From positions 1 through 45,705 of IMG/VR virus record IMGVR_UViG_3300033149_002665: a stretch of DNA of 45,705 nt; one strand, 5' to 3'. The DNA comes from a virus. A program made the translations under genes and the position numbers. This document shows positions 2,866 through 45,705 of the stretch, one piece after another. The notes under the pieces are model-generated. The model ran no database searches, was not told where the DNA came from, and saw only the letters and a program-made list of their open reading frames with translations. Position 1 is the first letter of the stretch. Every line of letters begins with the position of its first letter.

Positions 2866-3348
2866 ATGAAAATTAAAAAGGATTTTATTACAAATTCTAG
2901 TTCTTCAAGTTTTATAGTAGCTTGGGATAAAGAAATAAAATGTTTTGAAGATGTTTATAAATTTATACCTAATATAGAAAAAGCAATGGCTGTATTACAA
3001 GATTCAAAGAATCAAACTCCTTTAAAAACTGATATATTAAATTATTCAAATACTATTAAAAGAATTCATAGTGTAATTAGAAGTGGTACATTTGATGGTT
3101 ATTTATCTTTATCTTATGATGATATAATAAAGAATGATGATTATAGAAAAAGGTATAAATTATGGAAGTGTATTCGAGAGGAGAATAGAAAAATATCATT
3201 AAAATTAGCTAAACAATTTGTAAAAGAAAATATTGATAAAGTTTTTTATATTTTTCATTATTCAGATAATAATGGAGAATTTTGGTCTCAAATGGAACAT
3301 GATGGAATTTTCTATGAGTTACCATTTATTCATGTAAGTCACCATTAA
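2866..3348 (+). CDS. TNSS-motif protein 2
   Basis: A 160-residue protein that starts MKIKKDFITNSSSSSFIVAW, the clearest copy of the shared N-terminal motif. The remainder is a soluble, charged and aromatic-rich domain ending in several His residues (FIHVSHH) with no family I recognise. GAAAGGAG gives a strong ribosome site. It sits 18 bases after the preceding motif protein and 14 before the next, so the three form one transcription unit. The first 15 codons are nearly identical at DNA level to the next gene, pointing to recent duplication or selection on the motif. Confidence 0.85.
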   Translation: MKIKKDFITNSSSSSFIVAWDKEIKCFEDVYKFIPNIEKAMAVLQDSKNQTPLKTDILNYSNTIKRIHSVIRSGTFDGYLSLSYDDIIKNDDYRKRYKLWKCIREENRKISLKLAKQFVKENIDKVFYIFHYSDNNGEFWSQMEHDGIFYELPFIHVSHH

Positions 3349-3362
3349 GGAGTTTATTAAAT

Positions 3363-3722
3363 ATGAAAATTAAAAAAGATTTTATTACAAATTCTAGTAG
3401 TGCTAGCTTTTTAATGTGTATAAAAACGGATGAAAATATTACTACTTTAGAAGAATTTGAAAAATGGTTTAGTAATTATATGGATATTTATATCGATAAT
3501 TTAAAGGAATATTGTCATAGTAGTTCATTTCCATCTTTTTACAATCCAGGTAATATTAGACAAGAGTCTGGAAATCTTTTTGTAATAATAGACTCTTGTT
3601 TATTATATAATAATTATAAAAATGTTCCACAATATATGAGAGATTTAATTTTAAGACATTTAATTGATAATGATCTAAAAGGAATAAAGAATATAACAAT
3701 CAAAGTAGAAAAAGATGAATAA
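3363..3722 (+). CDS. TNSS-motif protein 3
   Basis: A 119-residue protein that starts MKIKKDFITNSSSASFLMCI, the third tandem copy of the motif. The body (residues 21-119) is different again, with an acidic first half and a C-terminal stretch (GIKNITIKVEKDE) that looks like a beta strand. AAGGAG precedes the ATG. No function is known to me. The pattern of one conserved leader and three unlike bodies is the main reason to treat these genes as a set. Confidence 0.83.
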   Translation: MKIKKDFITNSSSASFLMCIKTDENITTLEEFEKWFSNYMDIYIDNLKEYCHSSSFPSFYNPGNIRQESGNLFVIIDSCLLYNNYKNVPQYMRDLILRHLIDNDLKGIKNITIKVEKDE

Positions 3723-23290: not shown

Positions 23291-24223
23291 TTACCCTTTC
23301 ATACAATTTTCACAAGGAGTTCCTTTTATTTTTTTGTTCAAATGTGCTTTACGTAACTTCCTAAATTTATCACTATTCCAAGCTTCCATAAAAGAAGTTT
23401 TAGTTAAATCTCCCATTTCAAATCTTCCATCATGATCAAAACAACAAGCAGCTAATTTACCATCATATGTAATATGTCCTTCTGTAAAAATACTCCAACA
23501 TGGAATTGGATCTCTTGGATTATCAAATCTCCCAATATTTCCAGCAACATAATCTTTTCCAAAGACTCCAGAAGTTAGACCAGCTTGATTATATAATGGT
23601 AACCAATAATGTTCATCAACATATGGTTTAATTAATTCAACTGCTTCTTTCATTTTTTCATGTTGTTTATTATCATATTTAATAGAAGATGCATATATTC
23701 CACATTTATGACCAGTCTTTTTAAAAACTTCATCTGATATACTTCTAGCATATTTTATATTACTAATTATTTTATTAAATACATCATAACCCGTCATGTC
23801 TTTTGATTGTTTACTATCTGCCCAATTAAAAGAAAATTTAAGAGAATCTAATCCAGCTAACATACTTTCTCTAAGTTTCTTTGGAGTAGATACAACTCCA
23901 TTAGTTGTAATAAAAACATAATCAAATCCAATATGTTTAGCTGAATTAATTGCTGCATTTAAATATTTATATAAATAACTTTCTCCTAAATAAAATAAAC
24001 CAAGTTCTTGAACACCAGACTCTTTTAAATCTTTAATAATATCTAAATATAAAAAGAAATCCATATCTCCTTGTTGTCTCAAACCTTTAGCAGTAGCACA
24101 GAACCAACATTTTAAATTACATTTTGCAGTTAATTCAATTTTTACAGATATGGGAGCTGGAATAATTTCTTTTTTATAAGTTTCAATTAGACCAGTTACA
24201 TTATCAATCTTTTTTGTGATCAT
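23291..24223 (-). CDS. Radical SAM enzyme with SPASM-like C-terminus
   Basis: A 310-residue protein. CNLKCWFC (C35, C39, C42) is the cluster-binding motif for radical SAM chemistry, followed by LGLFYLGESYLY as the GGE-like strand. The C-terminal section has CWSIFTEGHITYDGKLAACC (in part) and CENC, the cysteine set expected of SPASM domains that hold auxiliary clusters. Such enzymes modify peptides, proteins or sugars. The gene lies right after a class I methyltransferase gene and upstream of the DUF5320-like gene, with AAAGGA as ribosome site. The target is unknown; the nearby fibre or sugar decorations are possible. Confidence 0.88.
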   Translation of the reverse strand: MITKKIDNVTGLIETYKKEIIPAPISVKIELTAKCNLKCWFCATAKGLRQQGDMDFFLYLDIIKDLKESGVQELGLFYLGESYLYKYLNAAINSAKHIGFDYVFITTNGVVSTPKKLRESMLAGLDSLKFSFNWADSKQSKDMTGYDVFNKIISNIKYARSISDEVFKKTGHKCGIYASSIKYDNKQHEKMKEAVELIKPYVDEHYWLPLYNQAGLTSGVFGKDYVAGNIGRFDNPRDPIPCWSIFTEGHITYDGKLAACCFDHDGRFEMGDLTKTSFMEAWNSDKFRKLRKAHLNKKIKGTPCENCMKG

Positions 24224-31854: not shown

Positions 31855-32646
31855 TTATTTATTCCAAACATTTAACTTTTCTGCATTCTCTTTGCAAATC
31901 TTTTCAATCCAATATTTCGTTTCATCATTTAAATATTGAGAAGATCTCCTTGGTTCATTTGGTTTAAATTCTCTAAGTTGTTTTCCAGGATTCAATCCCT
32001 TATATATTTTATTTACTATTGTTTGTGGTTGTGTTACATTTTCATGATATCTGGCCAATATAAAGATATCTAAGTTTTCTAATATTGTATCAGAATGAAA
32101 TTTCCAAATTAATGCAGATTTTTGTTCTTTACTTTCTGCATTTCTTATTGCTTCTATATCTTTCCATCTATCTGTTTCTTTATAATACCAATAATTAATT
32201 GGTTCTAATTCAGGTCCATTTCCAGCTACATTATACATAGAACCAATAGTATCAAAGGGATTTCTAACACAACAAATATATCTGCATTCTGGAAATACTT
32301 TTCTATATATGGGAATTCTATTTAAAGATGGAATAGGACTTTTAATTCCAAAAATGAAATCATCATTATCTATTTTATATATACCTCTGGAAGTTTTATT
32401 ATTTGTTTCTTTTAATGTATCTTCTATTTGTCCACCACTTTTTCTAACTACCATATGAGTTTTTTCTCTATTTAAAACTTGTTTATACCAATGATCAAAT
32501 AATTCTTTAATTCTCTCTGGTTCACTTGGTATATATAAAAGTGGAGGTTCATTCATAATTACAGCATTTGAAAATTCATTACAAATACCACAGAGAAAAC
32601 TTGTTCCAGATCTTCCAATTCCCGTTATTAGAATATATGGATTCAT
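31855..32646 (-). CDS. Sulfotransferase (PAPS-dependent type)
   Basis: A 263-residue protein. GIGRSGTSFLCGI (residues 9-21) is the 5'-phosphosulfate-binding loop and ICCVRNPFDTIGSMYNVAG (in part) the 3'-phosphate-binding motif (RNPxDxxxS) of cytosolic-type sulfotransferases. Between them lies NEPPLLY. A His in WKFHSDTIL may be part of the active site. The family moves sulfate from PAPS to hydroxyl groups of sugars, Tyr or small molecules. It is a paralogue of the protein at 34.1-34.9 kb and shares much sequence with it, and an APS-kinase-like gene upstream could supply the donor. Confidence 0.82.
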   Translation of the reverse strand: MNPYILITGIGRSGTSFLCGICNEFSNAVIMNEPPLLYIPSEPERIKELFDHWYKQVLNREKTHMVVRKSGGQIEDTLKETNNKTSRGIYKIDNDDFIFGIKSPIPSLNRIPIYRKVFPECRYICCVRNPFDTIGSMYNVAGNGPELEPINYWYYKETDRWKDIEAIRNAESKEQKSALIWKFHSDTILENLDIFILARYHENVTQPQTIVNKIYKGLNPGKQLREFKPNEPRRSSQYLNDETKYWIEKICKENAEKLNVWNK

Positions 32647-34145: not shown

Positions 34146-34943
34146 TTATTTATTCCAAACTCCTAACTTTTTTGCATTCTCCTTACATATCTTTTCTATC
34201 CAATATTTCATTTCATCATTTAAATATTGAGAGGATCTTCTTATTTCACTTGTAGTAAATTTTTTTAGTTGTTTTCCCAAATCCAATCCTTTATATATTT
34301 TATTAATAATATCCTGAACATTAATTACACTTTCATGATATCTAGCCAATATGAAAATATCTAAATTTTCCAGAATAGTATCAGAATGAAATTTCCATAT
34401 TAATGCTGTCTTATATGCTTTATTACGAGTGTTATTTATAAATTCAATATCTTTCCATCTAGAAGTGGTAGCTTTATAATAAAAAAAATTAATTGGTTCC
34501 AAACTAGTTCTCTGATTAAGAACATTATATATAGAACCACATGTATCAAGAGGATTTCTTATACATGCAACATATCTACATTCTGGAAATACTTGTCTAA
34601 AAATAGGAATTCTATTTAAAAATGGAGTTGGGTTTTTAATTCCAAAGATAAAGTTTTCATTATCAAAATCATAGATACCTTTTAAAGATCTATTATTAAT
34701 TTCTTTCATTGTATCTTCTACTTCATTACCATCTTTTCTAATCATTTTATAAGTTTCTTTTTTACTAATTATTTGATTTCTCCAATATTCAAAAAATTCT
34801 TTTATTCTATATGGTTCATCATATATATTACATTTTACAGGTGGTTCATTCATAATTATAGCATTTGAAAATTCATTACATTTTGAGCATAAATAACTAG
34901 TACCTGATCTTTCTATACCAGTTATTAAAATATAAGGAGACAT
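34146..34943 (-). CDS. Sulfotransferase (PAPS-dependent type)
   Basis: A 265-residue paralogue of the sulfotransferase at 31.9-32.6 kb. It has GIERSGTSYLC (9-19) for the phosphosulfate, and VACIRNPLDTCGSIYNVL (in part) for the 3'-phosphate site. The C-terminal 60 residues (RRSSQYLNDEMKYWIEKICK in part) are nearly the same in both. Two copies, each next to a fibre gene, suggest duplication of a fibre-plus-enzyme unit. The gap to the next upstream gene is two bases. Confidence 0.82.
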   Translation of the reverse strand: MSPYILITGIERSGTSYLCSKCNEFSNAIIMNEPPVKCNIYDEPYRIKEFFEYWRNQIISKKETYKMIRKDGNEVEDTMKEINNRSLKGIYDFDNENFIFGIKNPTPFLNRIPIFRQVFPECRYVACIRNPLDTCGSIYNVLNQRTSLEPINFFYYKATTSRWKDIEFINNTRNKAYKTALIWKFHSDTILENLDIFILARYHESVINVQDIINKIYKGLDLGKQLKKFTTSEIRRSSQYLNDEMKYWIEKICKENAKKLGVWNK

Positions 34944-37126: not shown

Positions 37127-38428
37127 CTATTTCTTCCAAAAATACAACATTGATAAATGTCCACCTTTAAAATCTAATTTATAATAGTTAAACCATTTTG
37201 AAAATTTTTGAATTATCTTTTTATCAAAGTCTTTGAATCCTAATATAAAATGATGATATTCAAGAGATATTTTATTTATTTTTTGTAAATTCTCATCTGT
37301 TATCTCTCTTAATATTTCATATTCTGCTCCTTCTACATCAATTTTTAAAAAATCTATTTTTTCAAAATAATTTTCTTCAAATAAACTATTTATAGATCTA
37401 CATTCTACTTTAACAATTTGATTTGTTTTTGTATTATTTGTATTATTATATATTAAAGAATGTCCACCAATATTTTGATCAATATATAAATTAGATAATT
37501 TATCTTTACCTGCAATAGCATAATTAAATGCTTTACAATTTGGTGGTTTATTTCTTATTAAACATTTAAAATTTTCCTTATGAGGTTCAAAAGAATATAC
37601 TTTTTTAGCTTTACAAAACTTAGCAAAACGAGAAAACATTCCAATATTAGCACCAATATCAACTACTATATCATCTTCATCAATTACACATTTATCATGA
37701 AAATATTCTTTTTTTATGAAAATATCTTCATACATTCTCTTTGTTAACCAAGGTTGATAATTTGGATCTAATAACTTATTTATTTTAATTGGTTCATCTT
37801 TATCTGGAATATATAAATAGTTATATTTTGGTTCTAATAATCTATATAACATGTCATTTAGATCTCGTCTATCTTTCTTATTTTTTTCATTTTTTAATTC
37901 TCTTGACCAACCAAAATCAATTAATACCCAATCTAAATTATCTTTTACAATTATATGATCTTCTTTTATTTCACAATGAGATATTTTTACACTTTCAAGA
38001 TCATTAATTATTTGTTCACATTGTGCATGTAAGTATAATGGATCCAACTTTGTTGATATTTGAGAAAGTTTAATACCTCTAATATATTCCATATCTACAT
38101 AAGAATTATCTTTTAATGATCCATTTTTAAATTTACCTATTTCATATATTTTCGGGAAATGAATTGAATTTGACAATCTTTCCATGCATAATTTCCAACC
38201 AAATAAAGGGTCTTCTTGAACATAATGTCCTTTAGAAATCCAACATAAATGATTATTTTTTTCATCAATCCATATTTGAGATTGTCCACCCTCTAATTCT
38301 TGTTTTCTTTTATATGAAGATAAATTAAAATTTTCAGAATTTGCTATATTACTACATCTTCTAGTTTCTTCTATTTCATTTCCATTTCCAAAATATTCAA
38401 TTTTTTTCTCACCACATAATTCGATCAT
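37127..38428 (-). CDS. Kinase-like / FkbM-type methyltransferase fusion
   Basis: A 433-residue protein of two parts. Residues 50-200 look like a small protein-kinase-fold domain: YVDMEYIRGIKL as the hinge, SHCEIKEDHIIV as the catalytic loop (Glu in place of the usual Asp) and LIDFGWS as the metal-binding DFG. Residues 235-433 are an FkbM-type methyltransferase: VVDIGANIGMFS (256-267), YSFEPHKENF and LKIDVEGAEYEIL. A kinase joined to a methyltransferase recalls WbdD, which caps O-antigen chains with methyl phosphate, though with the order reversed. It overlaps the giant glycosyltransferase gene by four bases. Confidence 0.82.
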   Translation of the reverse strand: MIELCGEKKIEYFGNGNEIEETRRCSNIANSENFNLSSYKRKQELEGGQSQIWIDEKNNHLCWISKGHYVQEDPLFGWKLCMERLSNSIHFPKIYEIGKFKNGSLKDNSYVDMEYIRGIKLSQISTKLDPLYLHAQCEQIINDLESVKISHCEIKEDHIIVKDNLDWVLIDFGWSRELKNEKNKKDRRDLNDMLYRLLEPKYNYLYIPDKDEPIKINKLLDPNYQPWLTKRMYEDIFIKKEYFHDKCVIDEDDIVVDIGANIGMFSRFAKFCKAKKVYSFEPHKENFKCLIRNKPPNCKAFNYAIAGKDKLSNLYIDQNIGGHSLIYNNTNNTKTNQIVKVECRSINSLFEENYFEKIDFLKIDVEGAEYEILREITDENLQKINKISLEYHHFILGFKDFDKKIIQKFSKWFNYYKLDFKGGHLSMLYFWKK

Positions 38429-41400
38429 TTTTTAAAAACCTCGGTTATTGCTTTTAAAACGGATGTTTCTGTTATTTCTTTACTACATATAAAATTATTA
38501 TCTCTTGGACACCAATTCCAATTTCCTCTATCAAATACTAAATTAGGATCATTTAAACAACCATGACAAACATTTTTATTAATAATTCTTTTAATTCCAG
38601 TTTGGAATTCCAACATTTCCAAACTACAACCAGAAATCATTATTACTGGAATATTTAAAGCCCATGCTAACCAAGCTAAACCTGAACTTACTCCAATAAA
38701 TAAATTACAATTTTTTAATCTATAAATAGTTTCTTGAATTGGTCTATTATGATATTTTTCAACCCCATTTAAATTTGTAGATTCTTTGCTTATAGATAGT
38801 ACTTTATAACCAATCTTATTTATAAAATCAACTACTTTTTGCCAACCATTTTTTCTATTCCAATATTTACATTGTAAAGTAGAATGTTCAGATATACAAA
38901 CATATTTTTCTGGAACAACTTTAAAACCTTCATCATCATTATTTATAACAATTTTTGGTTTAATCTCTGTATAATCTAATCCTAAAGTATCTGAAGCTAT
39001 TTTTTGTAATGGGATTGTTCTCCAATTATTTTTATTTTTATTATAATCATTATCAAAACAACCAATTGTATATGAAGCATATAAATTATGAACAACAGTG
39101 CCCGGTTCAACAAAATCAATTTCTTTATAATTTTCTCTAAACAAATCATTCCAAAATGTAGAAACTATAACTTTACAATTATGTTTCTTTCTAAACTCTT
39201 CAGTATATGGAAACCAGGCAATTGTATCTCCTAATGACTTACTATCAAGAGTTATTAAAACTCTTTTATCAGAAGCATCAAAAATATGACTAAATATAAT
39301 TTTATCATCTAGTTTTGAAACTACTTTCCAATTAGTAAAATATTTTCTAAATGGTCTCAAATATTTTCCAGGAGAAACTTGATCTTTATATATTATTTCT
39401 TCATTATCATTATCAATAAATTCAACATCATAAATTTTATTATCATCTCCTTTTACACTTAATTTTGGTCCATCTATGAAAAAGAGAGAAAAATGATTAT
39501 TTGTATAATCTTGTTTACCATAATTTCCCCACACCCATTTGACACATTCAATTGAATTATCATAAAATTTAAATGTTGTTTCATCATAAATTTTATTTGG
39601 ATCTAATTCTAATGTTTTAAATATTTCATTATTTATATAAACTTCTATATTATAAATATCTTTTCTCTTCTTAAATTTATACCAATGAACCATAGACTTT
39701 TCTATTTTCATATCATCAGTTTCATTATTATTATATTTATCTATAACTTTATAATTAATACTATTTTCACTATTATTAATAATAAATAAAAGTGTTTCAT
39801 TTGAATCTTTTATATCTGATAATAATGCTCTGATTTTTGGTTCTTTATCAGATTTATTAATTATGTTTCGATTAATTATAATATCATTTGCTATTTCATT
39901 ACTAAATATTGTTGAATATTTAAACATATCATATACAGTAAAATATCTATGTAACCAATGTTCAAAAACAAACTCTTCATTTCTATTAGATTTCTTAGCT
40001 ATTTCTTGACCAATTTCTTGATACTCTTTCCAACTAGAAACTCTTTTTAATTTGCTATTAAACCATTTAATATCAAAAGACATAATATTTGTTGTTATTC
40101 CAGAATCTATTAAATATTCGAAACCAACAAATTTATTTCTCTCTTTTTTTACTTTATCTAAATATTTATCTAAATCAATAATGGTATCTGATTCAATATA
40201 ATGTCCAAATATATATCTATCTGAACAAAAGTTTAAAGCATTTTTTATCATTGATAAAATAGCTGCTGATTGATAATTTCCATGTTCAAATTTACCAACT
40301 ATTTTTAAATAATTTTTAGCTTCATACCAATAATTTAAAGACCAATCATCACTTAAAATATTTTCTTTCTCAAAGAGAATAAAATCAACTTCTTTTTGAA
40401 TATCTTCAGGTAATGGATAATGAGTTGTAATAATGATTGGAAATCCTTTATCTTTTACTTTCTTTATTGTATCTTTAAGTAATTTTCTTTTTTCTTGATT
40501 ATCAGCATAACAACCAATTATAAAAACTTCATTATCAACTTTATATTCTTCTTTTTCTTTTTTATAAGCATTTATATAAAGACAATTCTGATTATGAGAC
40601 CATAAATCTTTAATTGTAATATCATAAAATCCAGATTCTTTTAATAATTTTGTAATCATATTTCTAGTAAAACCAATTCTATGTTGTTCACCTTCCCATT
40701 CTTGATGACCAAATATAAAATTTAAACCATCTGTCCATTTATCTTCTTCTGAAAGCTCAAGAAAATGTTTTATACACCATTCAAAATTTGGAACATTAAT
40801 AGATAATTTTCCGTCATATTTTAAAACTCTATACCATTCTTTTAATACATCAAAAACTTCATGTTTAGATACATGTTCTAACATATGAGAAGACGTAATT
40901 TCATTTACTGAATTATCTTTAAACTGTTTAAGATCTTTAGCATCTAATTTTAAATCAGCTTTTTCATGATATTTATCTATATTTATATAACCATCTCGAA
41001 TATGTTTACCACAACCAATATTCAGTTTTATTTCATTCTTAACTAAAACAGTATCTTTTGAAGATAAATCAACTATATGTTTTAATGCTATATTAGCAGC
41101 ATTTTCCCATGAAAATTGTTTTCTAATGTTTTCTGATTTTCTAACAGCTTGTCTTTTACATTCTGAATATTCTTCATATACATAACGCATAGTTTTTTTC
41201 AGATGATCGAAATCAGGTTCAGCCCATAATCCAGGAACGTCATCTCCTTGCATAAATATTTTTTGCGGCGGTTGCATATCTTTTATTAATACTTTATGAG
41301 ATATTCCATCAGCAAATTCTAATTGAGCTCCATAATCTGAACATATAGTTGGAATACCACAAGCAATTGCTTCTATTAATGGTAAATTCCAACCTTCAGA

Positions 41401-42729
41401 TCTAGAACATGAAACTAATACATGTCCATGTTGTAAATAATATAAGTAATCTCTAAAAGGTGGAAAATGTTCTATTTTAATTCTATAATCATTTAAATCA
41501 TAATATTTTAATCTTTCTTCAGTTGAATTCATTCCATCAACTGGAAATTTATTATCTATTGAACATATTAATTCTACTCTTTCATCTTTATCAAATTCTT
41601 CTATAAATGCTTTAATTATTTCAGTTGTAGATTTTCTATAATCCCATCTTCCAAATAATAAAAATTTAAAAGTAGTATTATATTGATTATTAATTTCTTT
41701 ATCATCAAGAGGTTTAAATATATTTCCATCAACTCCTTCTGGAACTATTTTTACTTTATCTTCTGGATATCCTTGTTCAATACTGCATTTTCTTTGCCAA
41801 TAAGTTGGAACCCATAATTCATCATATTCTAAAAGTTTTTTAAAAAATTTTTCTGGTTGTCTTGTAGACTCCCAAACATTATATGCTATTTTTAATCCTT
41901 CATATTTATGATAGAAATAATAATGATTGGTTTCATTAAGAATTATATTTATTGTTTTTGAATTTAAATCTTTTTTATATGGTTTTCCAACTTTCCAAGG
42001 TGCTTCTGACCATTTTTGTTCAATTATCATATTTTTCTGTTCTTCTGATAAATATGAAATATCAGGATAATGAGAAAAATTTCTAACTCTAACTGGTAAT
42101 AATTGATTTAGTGTAGTAAAAAATTCTCTAGAATGATTTGCAAAACCAGTATGTCCTATAAAACTAGTATGTGCTAATATACTTATTGGAGAACTTAATT
42201 CAATATTTTGTAAATTAGAATAACTAGAATTTATCATAGGTTTTTTCTTAGCAAATAGGAAAACTCCAGGTTGAGAAGAATCCGATTCTAAAAATATTAT
42301 TTCAAAATCTCTGAATATTTTTTTTATATCTTCTTTTGTAAACCTCCAGTAATCTTTTGGATATCCATGATATGGAAAACCAGGAGATCTAGTAGTAATT
42401 AGTATGTAACCATTATCTCTTAAAACTCCTTTCATATTATTGATAGCATTTTGCCAATCTTTTACATGTTCTATCATTTCACAAGAAATAAGAATATCAA
42501 AAGAATTTTCTTTATTTATAAGTAATAAATCATTAACATCACATATTTGATCTACATCTTTTCCAGATATTATATCACATCCAATATATTTTTTTGGATG
42601 TAAAGATTTAATATAAAACCTTGGGGAACCATTTACGTTTCTACTACCAACTTCAATAATCTCTTTATTTTCTACTTTTTCTTTATCTAAACATTTTTCT
42701 ATAAATTTTAGACATTCAGAATTACACAT
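38425..42729 (-). CDS. Giant methyltransferase-glycosyltransferase-heptosyltransferase fusion
   Basis: A 1434-residue protein. In order: a methyltransferase (IIEVGSRNVNG, ISCEMIEHV, about 20-165); a GT4-type glycosyltransferase (ILAHTSFIGHTGF, FGRWDYRKS, SRSEGWNLPLIEAIACGIP, about 180-545); a second methyltransferase (LNIGCGKHIRDG, TSSHMLEHV, about 575-715); a GT-A-like part (FIIGCYADNQ, GHYIESDT, about 730-920); a beta-rich link; and from about 1156 a GT9-type domain with LDSKSLGDTIAWFPY and GVSSGLAWLAWAL. That domain ends with CHGC (1388/1391), C1407 and C1415, the iron-site pattern of TibC-type autotransporter heptosyltransferases. It would build and methylate a glycan. Both neighbours are kinase-methyltransferase fusions. 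Confidence 0.88.
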   Translation of the reverse strand: MCNSECLKFIEKCLDKEKVENKEIIEVGSRNVNGSPRFYIKSLHPKKYIGCDIISGKDVDQICDVNDLLLINKENSFDILISCEMIEHVKDWQNAINNMKGVLRDNGYILITTRSPGFPYHGYPKDYWRFTKEDIKKIFRDFEIIFLESDSSQPGVFLFAKKKPMINSSYSNLQNIELSSPISILAHTSFIGHTGFANHSREFFTTLNQLLPVRVRNFSHYPDISYLSEEQKNMIIEQKWSEAPWKVGKPYKKDLNSKTINIILNETNHYYFYHKYEGLKIAYNVWESTRQPEKFFKKLLEYDELWVPTYWQRKCSIEQGYPEDKVKIVPEGVDGNIFKPLDDKEINNQYNTTFKFLLFGRWDYRKSTTEIIKAFIEEFDKDERVELICSIDNKFPVDGMNSTEERLKYYDLNDYRIKIEHFPPFRDYLYYLQHGHVLVSCSRSEGWNLPLIEAIACGIPTICSDYGAQLEFADGISHKVLIKDMQPPQKIFMQGDDVPGLWAEPDFDHLKKTMRYVYEEYSECKRQAVRKSENIRKQFSWENAANIALKHIVDLSSKDTVLVKNEIKLNIGCGKHIRDGYINIDKYHEKADLKLDAKDLKQFKDNSVNEITSSHMLEHVSKHEVFDVLKEWYRVLKYDGKLSINVPNFEWCIKHFLELSEEDKWTDGLNFIFGHQEWEGEQHRIGFTRNMITKLLKESGFYDITIKDLWSHNQNCLYINAYKKEKEEYKVDNEVFIIGCYADNQEKRKLLKDTIKKVKDKGFPIIITTHYPLPEDIQKEVDFILFEKENILSDDWSLNYWYEAKNYLKIVGKFEHGNYQSAAILSMIKNALNFCSDRYIFGHYIESDTIIDLDKYLDKVKKERNKFVGFEYLIDSGITTNIMSFDIKWFNSKLKRVSSWKEYQEIGQEIAKKSNRNEEFVFEHWLHRYFTVYDMFKYSTIFSNEIANDIIINRNIINKSDKEPKIRALLSDIKDSNETLLFIINNSENSINYKVIDKYNNNETDDMKIEKSMVHWYKFKKRKDIYNIEVYINNEIFKTLELDPNKIYDETTFKFYDNSIECVKWVWGNYGKQDYTNNHFSLFFIDGPKLSVKGDDNKIYDVEFIDNDNEEIIYKDQVSPGKYLRPFRKYFTNWKVVSKLDDKIIFSHIFDASDKRVLITLDSKSLGDTIAWFPYTEEFRKKHNCKVIVSTFWNDLFRENYKEIDFVEPGTVVHNLYASYTIGCFDNDYNKNKNNWRTIPLQKIASDTLGLDYTEIKPKIVINNDDEGFKVVPEKYVCISEHSTLQCKYWNRKNGWQKVVDFINKIGYKVLSISKESTNLNGVEKYHNRPIQETIYRLKNCNLFIGVSSGLAWLAWALNIPVIMISGCSLEMLEFQTGIKRIINKNVCHGCLNDPNLVFDRGNWNWCPRDNNFICSKEITETSVLKAITEVFKK

Positions 42730-42745: not shown

Positions 42746-43963
42746 TTAGTACACTTTAAATAAATGTCTTAACCCACCATGTTTATTTGTTGTTCTAATA
42801 AAATATACTTTCTTATCAGTTAAACTTTCTAAATATTTTTTAATATCTTCTTTTGATTTTAAAGACTCTACTTTATACATACCGCTACTTTCTAATCCAG
42901 AAGTTTGAAAAAATGTTTCTTTACTTTTCTCAAATAAATTTGATAAAATGTTATCTACTTTATTTTTTAATTGTTTATGTAACCACATATGAACATTCAT
43001 ACAAAGAGATAAATCAACGCTTTCAAATCTGGTTTTTTCATCAACTTTATTATTTATATTCAATTCACTCAAATTAAAAAACTTCTTTACTTTTTTTAAA
43101 AAATTAAAAACATGTGGATCTGATTCATATATAAATATAATATTTGGATTGAATTCTCTTAATAATCCAAATGAATTATATCCAACAGAAGATCCAATAT
43201 CTATAATCTTTTCTGGTATTATTGAAATATTATTTAATATTGTATTAAATTCTTCTTCAGTGTTTTTGTGGTATAATATGTTTTTGAAAGAAGGTATGTC
43301 TATTTTATGGTAAGATTTTCCTAAATTTACAGATGAACCATCGTAATAAATATCTCCAAATTTAGAAATAATATTTTTTAAGTCTTTAATATTATTTTCG
43401 AATTTTTCATTTACTACAGAAATTTGTTTTTGTATTGTTTCTATTGATTTTATATCATCAATAAAATAATCACTATTTAAATTTTCTGGAATTCCTACTT
43501 CTATTCCATCAGTTTTTGACCAATAAAAATCAACCAACTTAATTTTTCTATCTCGTTCTGAAAATAATAAATTTCCAGGATTAATATCACGATGGTGAAT
43601 ATTTTTAGTTTTTAACAAATAAAGTATTTCATTAGTTTGATTTTTAAACTCATTAAATGAAATACTAAATAACATTCTTTTTATATTATTGTTATCTATT
43701 CCTTTAGAATTTCCAAGAGAAAATGTATATCTCCTCATTATATAACCATCATTGTAAATATATAATATTTCTGGAGAATATGGATTATTATTATCATAAT
43801 TAAATTTTTCTATACATTTTAATTCATTAGATAAACTAGATAACTTATTAATATTATTATCAAAATATTTTTTTCTTATATAAGATTTATTTAAGAAAAA
43901 TATTTCTGATTGGAATGTTTTTAAGGATTTTAATTGCTTGTTCTGATTCATCTGGTTCTTCAT
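42746..43963 (-). CDS. Kinase / methyltransferase fusion
   Basis: A 405-residue protein. The first half is a kinase-fold domain with IHHRDINPGNLLF (H124, D126, N131) as catalytic loop and LVDFYWS as the DFG-like motif, here DFY. The second half has IIDIGSSVGYNSFGLL (253-268) and FIYESDPHVFNFL, a methyltransferase-type nucleotide site. The ATG is chosen because AAAGGA lies seven bases before it; it lies 77 bases inside the upstream APS-kinase-like gene. It is only distantly related to the fusion at 37-38 kb. Together they flank the giant glycosyltransferase and may cap its product with phosphate and methyl groups. Confidence 0.78.
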   Translation of the reverse strand: MKNQMNQNKQLKSLKTFQSEIFFLNKSYIRKKYFDNNINKLSSLSNELKCIEKFNYDNNNPYSPEILYIYNDGYIMRRYTFSLGNSKGIDNNNIKRMLFSISFNEFKNQTNEILYLLKTKNIHHRDINPGNLLFSERDRKIKLVDFYWSKTDGIEVGIPENLNSDYFIDDIKSIETIQKQISVVNEKFENNIKDLKNIISKFGDIYYDGSSVNLGKSYHKIDIPSFKNILYHKNTEEEFNTILNNISIIPEKIIDIGSSVGYNSFGLLREFNPNIIFIYESDPHVFNFLKKVKKFFNLSELNINNKVDEKTRFESVDLSLCMNVHMWLHKQLKNKVDNILSNLFEKSKETFFQTSGLESSGMYKVESLKSKEDIKKYLESLTDKKVYFIRTTNKHGGLRHLFKVY

Positions 43964-44297
43964 AAGTAATTCCTTTCCAAAGATCTCCACCATCTATATA
44001 AATTAGTTTGAATTCTCTAATCATATTTTTTGCTTTGTTCCTCCATTCTTTTTTAGGACTTATACATGAAACTATTACTGTAAATCCTTGCTCTTCTGCA
44101 ATAGAAGCTATACACACCATTCTTAATATATGATTTTCTCGTCCTTTATCTGAATAATCTTGATCTTGAATTCTATTTCTAATATCATCTGCATCTAAAT
44201 GTAAAGTTTTTATACCCATTACATTTAACATTAATTTTAATTTTTTAGAAAGTGTTGTTTTTCCAGAATTTGCTTTTCCAGTAAACCAATAAACCAT
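43887..44297 (-). CDS. APS kinase-like P-loop protein (short)
   Basis: A 136-residue protein. WFTGKANSGKTTLSKKL holds the P-loop; HLDADDIRNRI, DKGRENHILRMVCIA and VIVSCISPKKEWR match the APS-binding and core motifs of adenylylsulfate kinase (CysC), which makes PAPS from APS and ATP. It is shorter than the usual 170-200 residues and lacks the RDxKGLYxKA segment; the end (GGDLWKGITYEEPDESEQ in part) keeps only the last piece. So it may be a trimmed APS kinase or a related small kinase. The two sulfotransferases downstream on the same strand make PAPS supply an attractive role. Confidence 0.72.
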   Translation of the reverse strand: MVYWFTGKANSGKTTLSKKLKLMLNVMGIKTLHLDADDIRNRIQDQDYSDKGRENHILRMVCIASIAEEQGFTVIVSCISPKKEWRNKAKNMIREFKLIYIDGGDLWKGITYEEPDESEQAIKILKNIPIRNIFLK

Positions 44298-45170: not shown

Positions 45171-45704
45171 TTAACTTTGATATGCTACAAGTTTAGTCAT
45201 CTCTAACCAACCGTTATGATTACTTGCACACCCATCAACATCTCTCCATAATTTAATAATAATTAAACATTCAGTTGTTGATAATTTTGCATTTGCTAAT
45301 TTAATATTTGTAAGAGTTAAAATATCATATGTGCTGGCAGTATTAGGTGGGTCTATTTCATCTTCAAGTGGACCTGAATCTGGACTAGCTATATCTGGTA
45401 TATCTCCATCTTCTACTACCCAAAAACTAGCATTTAATGAAACGTCTCCAGTATTTGAACTTGACATACAATACATTATTTTAATTAATACATCTGAAGA
45501 AGTAGACCATCCAGCAGGTAATTTAAAATGACACCATACTCCACCGTCTGCTAATGGACTAAACCTTACAACTCTTGCCATATTCCATGAATTTGCCTCT
45601 TCTACTGCATTCATAGTTCCATCAACATCAAATACTTCTAATTGCCACTCAGCTACTCCTATTCCAGAACTACCTGAAGATCCACTTGTTCCACTTGTTC
45701 CACT
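45171..45704 (-). CDS. Tail-fibre-like protein, C-terminal part (cut by window edge)
   Basis: 177 residues are visible up to the right edge, and the frame is open through it. The visible start is a Gly/Ser/Thr repeat (SGTSGTSGSSGSSG), a collagen-like linker common in tail fibres, then VAEWQLEVFDVDGTMNAVEE and a tip domain that nearly equals that of the next gene. The two genes are probably products of tandem duplication, with divergence in the strand pairs around residues 60-75 of the tip. Confidence 0.72.
   Translation of the reverse strand, partial: SGTSGTSGSSGSSGIGVAEWQLEVFDVDGTMNAVEEANSWNMARVVRFSPLADGGVWCHFKLPAGWSTSSDVLIKIMYCMSSSNTGDVSLNASFWVVEDGDIPDIASPDSGPLEDEIDPPNTASTYDILTLTNIKLANAKLSTTECLIIIKLWRDVDGCASNHNGWLEMTKLVAYQS
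45175..45645 (-). repeat. Tandem duplication, copy 2 (fibre tip domain)
   Basis: Matches 44349-44815; see that entry. Divergence is clustered in two short patches, which may be surface loops under selection. Confidence 0.85.
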
Positions 45705-45705
45705 A

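Follow-up and report, generated by a model that had tools for sequence, protein, structure and literature searches.

A viral fusion protein with a TibC-like end

The virus record IMGVR_UViG_3300033149_002665, analysed over its full 45,705 bases (the window), has a GC content of about 23-31% and contains a contractile-tail sheath gene. On its minus strand, an intact open reading frame (ORF) at 38425..42729, without internal stop, encodes a 1434-residue fusion protein composed of two S-adenosylmethionine (SAM)-dependent methyltransferase (MT) domains, a GT4-type glycosyltransferase (GT), a probable GT-A glycosyltransferase and, at the C-terminal end, a GT9 domain resembling the heptosyltransferase TibC, which in bacteria attaches heptose to serines of adhesins. 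Some 3 kb upstream of this reading frame, at the right edge of the window, lies SGTSGTSGSSGSSG, in which the 3' part of a fibre gene with a Gly-(Thr/Ser)-Ser triplet repeat begins. That two methyltransferases, a GT4-type and a GT9-type enzyme share one chain had been proposed from the sequence alone and is confirmed by matches of all four domains above the Pfam/NCBIfam cut-offs; the E-x7-E motif of the GT4 domain reads EGWNLPLIE. For the segment between the second methyltransferase and the TibC-like domain (residues ~706-985), a Pfam search returned no family match. Its AlphaFold model (predicted local distance difference test, pLDDT, 77.5) matched, at the top of a Foldseek search of the PDB, only GT-A glycosyltransferases and nucleotidyltransferases (E ~1e-4, TMq ~0.35), and one Asp is invariant and one Glu nearly invariant across the aligned relatives of this region. 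The GT-A-like part of the original prediction is thus probable but, given these modest scores, not proven.

The C-terminal domain scores 279.2 bits against TIGR04414, the NCBIfam equivalog of autotransporter O-heptosyltransferases (cutoff 200, E=5e-83), but only 17 bits against the heptosyltransferase I profile, and phmmer aligns it to TibC with E=6e-53. Its AlphaFold model (pLDDT 89.9) superimposes on TibC with a template modelling (TM) score of 0.83 over 374 TibC columns that comprise the barrel and the catalytic domain. The 21 best structural matches are all TibC chains; the next folds are GT9 enzymes and lipopolysaccharide (LPS) heptosyltransferases, with TM ~0.5.

According to the TibC structure, ADP-heptose is bound by Thr-226, Lys-230, Arg-286 and Trp-305 and iron by Cys-339, Cys-342, Cys-358 and Cys-370, and Asp-110 has been proposed as the catalytic base (PMC4358343). 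A loss of catalytic residues from the GT9 domain would have spoken against the original prediction, but no such loss is seen. The equivalents of Asp-110, Thr-226, Lys-230 and Trp-305 are present (D1168, T1284, K1288 and W1353), and Arg-286 is replaced by Thr (T1334). The predicted four-Cys iron pattern likewise recurs exactly, with C1388, C1391, C1407 and C1415 aligned to the four iron-binding cysteines of TibC. Pro-300 of TibC is Ser in the window protein, as in AAH, whose Ser-294 permits the use of both heptose epimers (PMC4358343). By score, fold, and catalytic and iron residues, the domain is a member of the TibC-type family if the family is taken broadly.

Relatives are encoded by at least 483 IMG/VR stretches in one scan and by 452 in another, the two sets overlapping. 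Asp-110, Trp-305 and all four Cys show no variation across 71 distinct domains, 68 of which also retain Lys-230. In 66 of the 71 proteins the domain stands at the C-terminal end; 22 proteins are stand-alone and 46 have at least 600 residues, with some ORFs cut by contig ends. The upstream modules are reshuffled: GT4-GT-A-MT-TibC (locus L028), GT4-MT-GT-A-TibC (L008), MT-GT-A-TibC (L081), GT4-GT-A-TibC (L012 and Microcystis phage Mel-JY01) and GT4-TibC (L025, L093). The fusion described as a glycan assembly line is thus one reshuffled form among the many domain orders of this large viral family. In the sequenced Microcystis phage Mel-JY01 (PP395634), the fused enzyme adjoins long GTS-repeat proteins. 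The domain was also found in two huge phages, 636 and 735 kb in size, and in L002 (8455-10308) the two lobes of the TibC-like domain are separated by an inserted methyltransferase-like stretch of ~240 residues. A second, shorter GT9-like protein of the LPS-heptosyltransferase type, below all cut-offs, lies near the TibC-like gene in L033 (710-1651) and L041 (7092-8087) and also in L015, L050, L065 and L080.

Cellular copies are rare. When one genome per species was scanned for 84,980 species of bacteria and archaea, using patterns derived from the phage domains, six matches resulted, three of which (L089, L090, L093) resemble phage contigs in metagenome-assembled genomes. Among 369 Gammaproteobacteria searched for further cellular copies, only two strong matches were found, both already known, and a search of the order to which one of them belongs revealed no further copy. 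In a tree, the window sequence and those of the phage loci L008, L009, L010 and L012 form a group of five with good support; TibC lies on a long branch, so that the tree gives neither the origin nor the direction of transfer.

Gly-(Thr/Ser)-Ser repeats near the enzyme

Long collagen-like proteins with Gly-(Thr/Ser)-Ser repeats recur among the neighbours of the enzyme. The repeat visible in the window is too short for a match to Pfam Collagen (PF01391), and a search of IMG/VR with the C-terminal fibre domain, meant to continue the sequence beyond the right end of the window, yielded no relative; a run of four G-(S/T)-(S/T) triplets occurs in 1/119 and 0/41 control loci. Neighbours of related enzymes match PF01391 in L028 (E=3e-82) and, with two proteins, in L091, and L092 remains just below the cutoff. 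The repeat proteins of L091 and L092 are short, start like lipoproteins and contain, besides the repeat, an acidic stretch. At the other extreme, a frame in L050 (11466-21056) is open over 9.6 kb and encodes 921 uninterrupted Gly-X-Y triplets, with 89% Ser/Thr/Gly, before running off the examined DNA.

Four tests examined the association. Fifty virus records of at least 20 kb were selected by one criterion alone, DNA that encodes tandem G-T-S-like triplets; the enzyme was found in 19 of them, as opposed to 1/50 controls chosen by a G-P-x DNA pattern (Fisher p=6e-6), and this lone enzyme-positive control also has a 78-triplet G-S/T-S/T repeat. Among 72 non-redundant enzyme loci, 49 contain repeats within the DNA examined, at a median distance of 1.5 kb. 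Under a strict repeat definition, 42/72 enzyme loci are positive versus 1/119 control loci, the controls being shorter on average. An earlier test restricted to short stretches was weak (7/120 versus 0/119), and the repeat test was therefore redone on whole records. Within one phage lineage, defined by selecting 80 T4-like loci through their tail sheath, repeats occur in 12 of the 39 loci with the enzyme and in none of the 41 without it (p=6e-5).

Further support was obtained from three bacterial genomes of two phyla (9.2, 3.8 and 2.3 Mb). In each of them, every six-triplet G-(S/T)-(S/T) site of the whole genome is located on the contig that carries the enzyme, at distances of ~5.7, 1.2-2.0 and 0.2 kb, respectively. 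Genuine repeats of the Gly-(Ser/Thr)-(Ser/Thr) kind were found in 2 of 273 other Gammaproteobacteria. The linkage in the three bacterial genomes is independent of phage kinship.

Acceptor, donor and competing explanations

In the 14,852 triplets near the enzyme, Ser accounts for 81% and Thr for 3.5% of the third positions. In the repeats of loci without a detected enzyme the values are 76% and 5%, so that the high Ser share is a trait of the repeat and does not prove that repeat and enzyme match. At the TibC sites that have been mapped, the modified residue is Ser rather than Thr, in one case within N-S-G (PMC4358343), and SGG is abundant in the heptosylated peptides of TibA (PMC3835316); the Ser-dominated Y position fits this preference.

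Genes that each resemble one of the two halves of HldE accompany the enzyme gene in L066, L067, L072, L082 and L084. The best curated matches in L067 and L082 are a heptose-7-phosphate kinase and a heptose-1-phosphate adenylyltransferase, encoded separately and below the equivalog cut-offs. No HldE-like gene was present in the G-P-x control loci or in the sheath loci without the enzyme, and their position beside some relatives points to ADP-heptose as the donor. In L125, L146 and L206, HldE-like genes lie beside Gly-x-Ser repeat genes without a TibC-like domain in the DNA examined, which may reflect another heptose-using enzyme or a TibC-like enzyme located further away.

The computed architecture, the fold, the conservation of the active and iron sites, and the association with Gly-x-Ser repeats in both phages and bacteria were combined into the reading that we regard, with some reserve, as probable: the C-terminal domain is a GT9-type protein O-glycosyltransferase with an iron finger, from a viral branch of the TibC/AAH (BAHT) family, which most likely transfers heptose, or a closely related sugar, to Ser of the phage's own Gly-(Thr/Ser)-Ser collagen-like fibres. 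The TibC-like domain would prime Ser of the fibre with the sugar of an ADP-sugar, in the host cytoplasm, either ahead of virion assembly or in its course. Elongation with more sugars would fall to the fused GT4 and GT-A-like domains, and the two fused methyltransferases, together with a neighbouring FkbM methyltransferase, would methylate the glycan, which in the phage of the window might also be sulfated by an APS kinase and two sulfotransferases. Such a coat could stabilize the proline-poor triple helices, shield the fibres or mediate adhesion.

Several observations weigh against this reading. The contig ends at the right edge, so that only four triplets of the window's repeat are visible, and L009 and L012, close relatives of the window of which 10-12 kb were examined, show no such repeat; L008 has one. 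Among the repeat-selected records, 31/50 are without a detected enzyme, although many are fragments. The viral counts overlap partly in kinship, since related phages recur, and are not corrected for it. HldE-like genes occur in a minority of loci, and none was seen in the window, whose phage would have to obtain the donor from the host. The thumb, which links TibC dimers into a dodecamer (PMC4358343), has 19 residues in the window protein versus 29 in TibC and is devoid of the hydrophobic Phe-Val tip, so that a TibC-style dodecamer is unlikely; about half of the relatives have a longer form of the thumb, many with Tyr-Met. Arg-286, which in TibC contacts adenine N1, is kept in just 13/71 relatives, and in view of both changes the donor and the oligomer may differ from those of TibC. 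Catalytic activity, sugar, substrate, order of the steps and purpose of the coat are all deduced from sequences and models.

The poor conservation of Arg-286, together with the absence of HldE-like genes from the DNA examined of most loci, also constitutes the case for a switch of donor, by which the Gly-x-Ser fibres would be modified with a sugar other than heptose. ADP-heptose synthesis may be absent from some hosts, for example cyanobacteria. We consider the switch unlikely, though it deserves attention: the other donor-site residues and the catalytic Asp are present, and the enzymes of the HldE-like loci carry Val or Thr as residue 286, so that the loss of Arg need not mean the loss of ADP-heptose use.

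That the enzyme instead alters surface glycans of the host (LPS or O-antigen) and thereby blocks superinfection appears improbable. A role of this kind has been proposed for the glycosyltransferases and rfaE of pelagimyophages (PMC7029224), LPS heptosyltransferases are among the GT9 relatives, and GT4, FkbM and sulfotransferase neighbours would also suit work on polysaccharides. However, by fold and profile score the domain is far closer to TibC than to LPS heptosyltransferases, and the gene linked to it, in bacterial genomes too, encodes a Gly-x-Ser repeat protein.

Glycosylation of other structural proteins of the phage would be in keeping with the several fibre-like proteins encoded close by in the window and with the recognition by TibC of the fold of beta-helical adhesins rather than of a sequence motif (PMC3835316). 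The original prediction had favoured substrates of this kind, namely Ser/Thr/Asn-rich repeat proteins and beta-helix fibres, the former represented in the window by four related proteins with the repeat motif ATDFGDL. This motif was found in 0/170 enzyme loci and 0/273 control loci, which rules these proteins out as a general partner of the enzyme and makes the alternative improbable as well, the repeat that does recur being Gly-(Thr/Ser)-Ser. The proposed decoration of fibres by the phage that encodes them is supported, but with a different partner.

Least probable is that enzyme and repeats co-occur only as passengers of one group of large phages and have no functional connection. Both are common in T4-like environmental phages and the viral counts are uncorrected for kinship, but repeats within one sheath lineage occur only with the enzyme, and in three bacterial genomes of two phyla the only repeats lie beside it.

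The preferred reading, glycosylation of Gly-x-Ser fibres by the TibC-like enzyme, can be extended to a general scheme, which we put forward tentatively and hold to be possible rather than probable. Viruses widely, and bacteria rarely, would heptosylate collagens through TibC-type enzymes with an iron finger, by placing heptose on the Y-position Ser of long, nearly proline-free Gly-Thr/Ser-Ser repeats of up to 921 uninterrupted triplets, in place of the hydroxyproline or glycosyl-threonine by which other collagens are steadied, and the fused modules would extend, methylate and perhaps sulfate the glycan of virion fibres.

Neighbouring genes and known systems

The positions of the domains and of the neighbouring genes are listed in Table 1. 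The FkbM protein encoded immediately downstream of the ORF is possibly a further glycan-modifying enzyme. The APS kinase may supply 3'-phosphoadenosine 5'-phosphosulfate for the two sulfotransferases, and the phage may thus sulfate a glycan or a protein. The ATDFGDL proteins perhaps adopt a propeller-like fold. Elsewhere in the window, three adjoining small proteins (2446-2847, 2866-3348, 3363-3722) have the common start MKIK.(D/N)F(I/V)TNSS followed by unrelated sequence, and two proteins (944-1999 and 23291-24223, the latter among fibre-like genes) contain CxxxCxxC motifs typical of radical SAM enzymes.

Table 1. Features of the window, with the domains of the fusion protein
Positions	Strand	Feature	Basis or remark
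38425..42729	minus	Fusion protein MT - GT4 - MT - probable GT-A - TibC-like	1434 aa
42235..42729	minus	SAM-dependent methyltransferase domain 1, aa 1-165	PF13489/PF08242, phrog_32762
41050..42192	minus	GT4-type glycosyltransferase domain with E-x7-E motif, aa 180-560	PF00534, phrog_2170 E=1e-35
40615..41046	minus	SAM-dependent methyltransferase domain 2, aa 562-705	PF08241 E=7e-17 (whole protein), best stretch aa 593-643
39775..40614	minus	Probable GT-A glycosyltransferase domain, aa 706-985	No Pfam match; Foldseek GT-A matches, modest scores
38431..39552	minus	TibC-like domain, aa 1060-1433, N-terminal beta-barrel and GT9 catalytic domain	TIGR04414 279 bits; TM 0.83 to 4RAP/4RB4
39226..39228	minus	D1168, equivalent of the TibC catalytic base Asp-110	Alignment; invariant in 71 distinct relatives
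38485..38568	minus	Iron finger C1388-C1415 (TibC C339/342/358/370)	Four Cys invariant in 71 distinct relatives
45171..45705	minus	3' part of a fibre gene running off the contig, Gly-(Thr/Ser)-Ser triplet repeat	Begins inside SGTSGTSGSSGSSG; proposed substrate
37127..38428	minus	FkbM methyltransferase with kinase-like N-terminal part (below cutoff)	PF05050 E=1.5e-23; overlaps the ORF end by 4 bases
42746..43993	minus	Kinase-like part (below cutoff) and weak methyltransferase-like part	Neighbour
43887..44297	minus	APS kinase family	PF01583 E=8e-21; neighbour
31855-32646, 34146-34943		Two sulfotransferase-family genes	PF13469
24789-25826, 29706-30680, 30774-31814, 33047-33661		Four related ATDFGDL repeat proteins	5-6 unit copies each and GVFGGG motifs

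Enzymes of the TibC type are known from a few pathogens, in which they modify adhesins and are linked to virulence; they are far commoner in environmental phages, where they occur in many domain arrangements. If the preferred reading holds, it would provide a concrete substrate and sugar for many phage genes annotated merely as glycosyltransferase or methyltransferase FkbM, suggest a route by which proline-poor viral collagens are stabilized, and raise the question of a viral origin of the TibC-type virulence enzyme. A literature search limited to one paper collection found no report that connects phages or collagen-like repeats with TibC-type enzymes, nor any of heptosylated phage fibres.

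Phage-encoded glycosyltransferases decorate virion proteins of the mycobacteriophages Che8 and Rita (PMC11256854, citing Freeman et al. 2023). That system differs in that the reported targets are major capsid proteins, and neither a TibC-type enzyme nor a collagen-like repeat is named in that account. LPS heptosyltransferases such as WaaC and WaaF belong to the same GT-B/GT9 superfamily and have a donor site of the ADP-heptose type, but they possess neither the barrel nor the iron finger. BclA of Bacillus and the collagen of mimivirus are glycosylated by enzymes other than the TibC type. In both, Gly-X-Y repeats carry the sugars, which in BclA are thought to improve hydration (PMC8968730). Bacterial collagens favour Thr at Y (PMC8968730), unlike the repeats near TibC-like enzymes, in which Ser prevails at this position.

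The closest counterpart remains TibC/AAH, the bacterial autotransporter heptosyltransferases (BAHT; TIGR04414; PDB 4RAP, 4RB4). The window enzyme shares with them the fold with the N-terminal barrel, the catalytic Asp, the residues corresponding to Thr-226, Lys-230 and Trp-305, the four Cys, and a repetitive partner rich in Ser and Gly. It differs from them as part of a 1434-residue phage fusion, in the Thr that replaces Arg-286, in the shortened thumb, and in its surroundings, which consist of phage genes and collagen-like Gly-x-Ser proteins instead of an autotransporter adhesin. By residue 286, thumb and partner it is not a BAHT in the strict sense, but rather an enzyme that would work like one.

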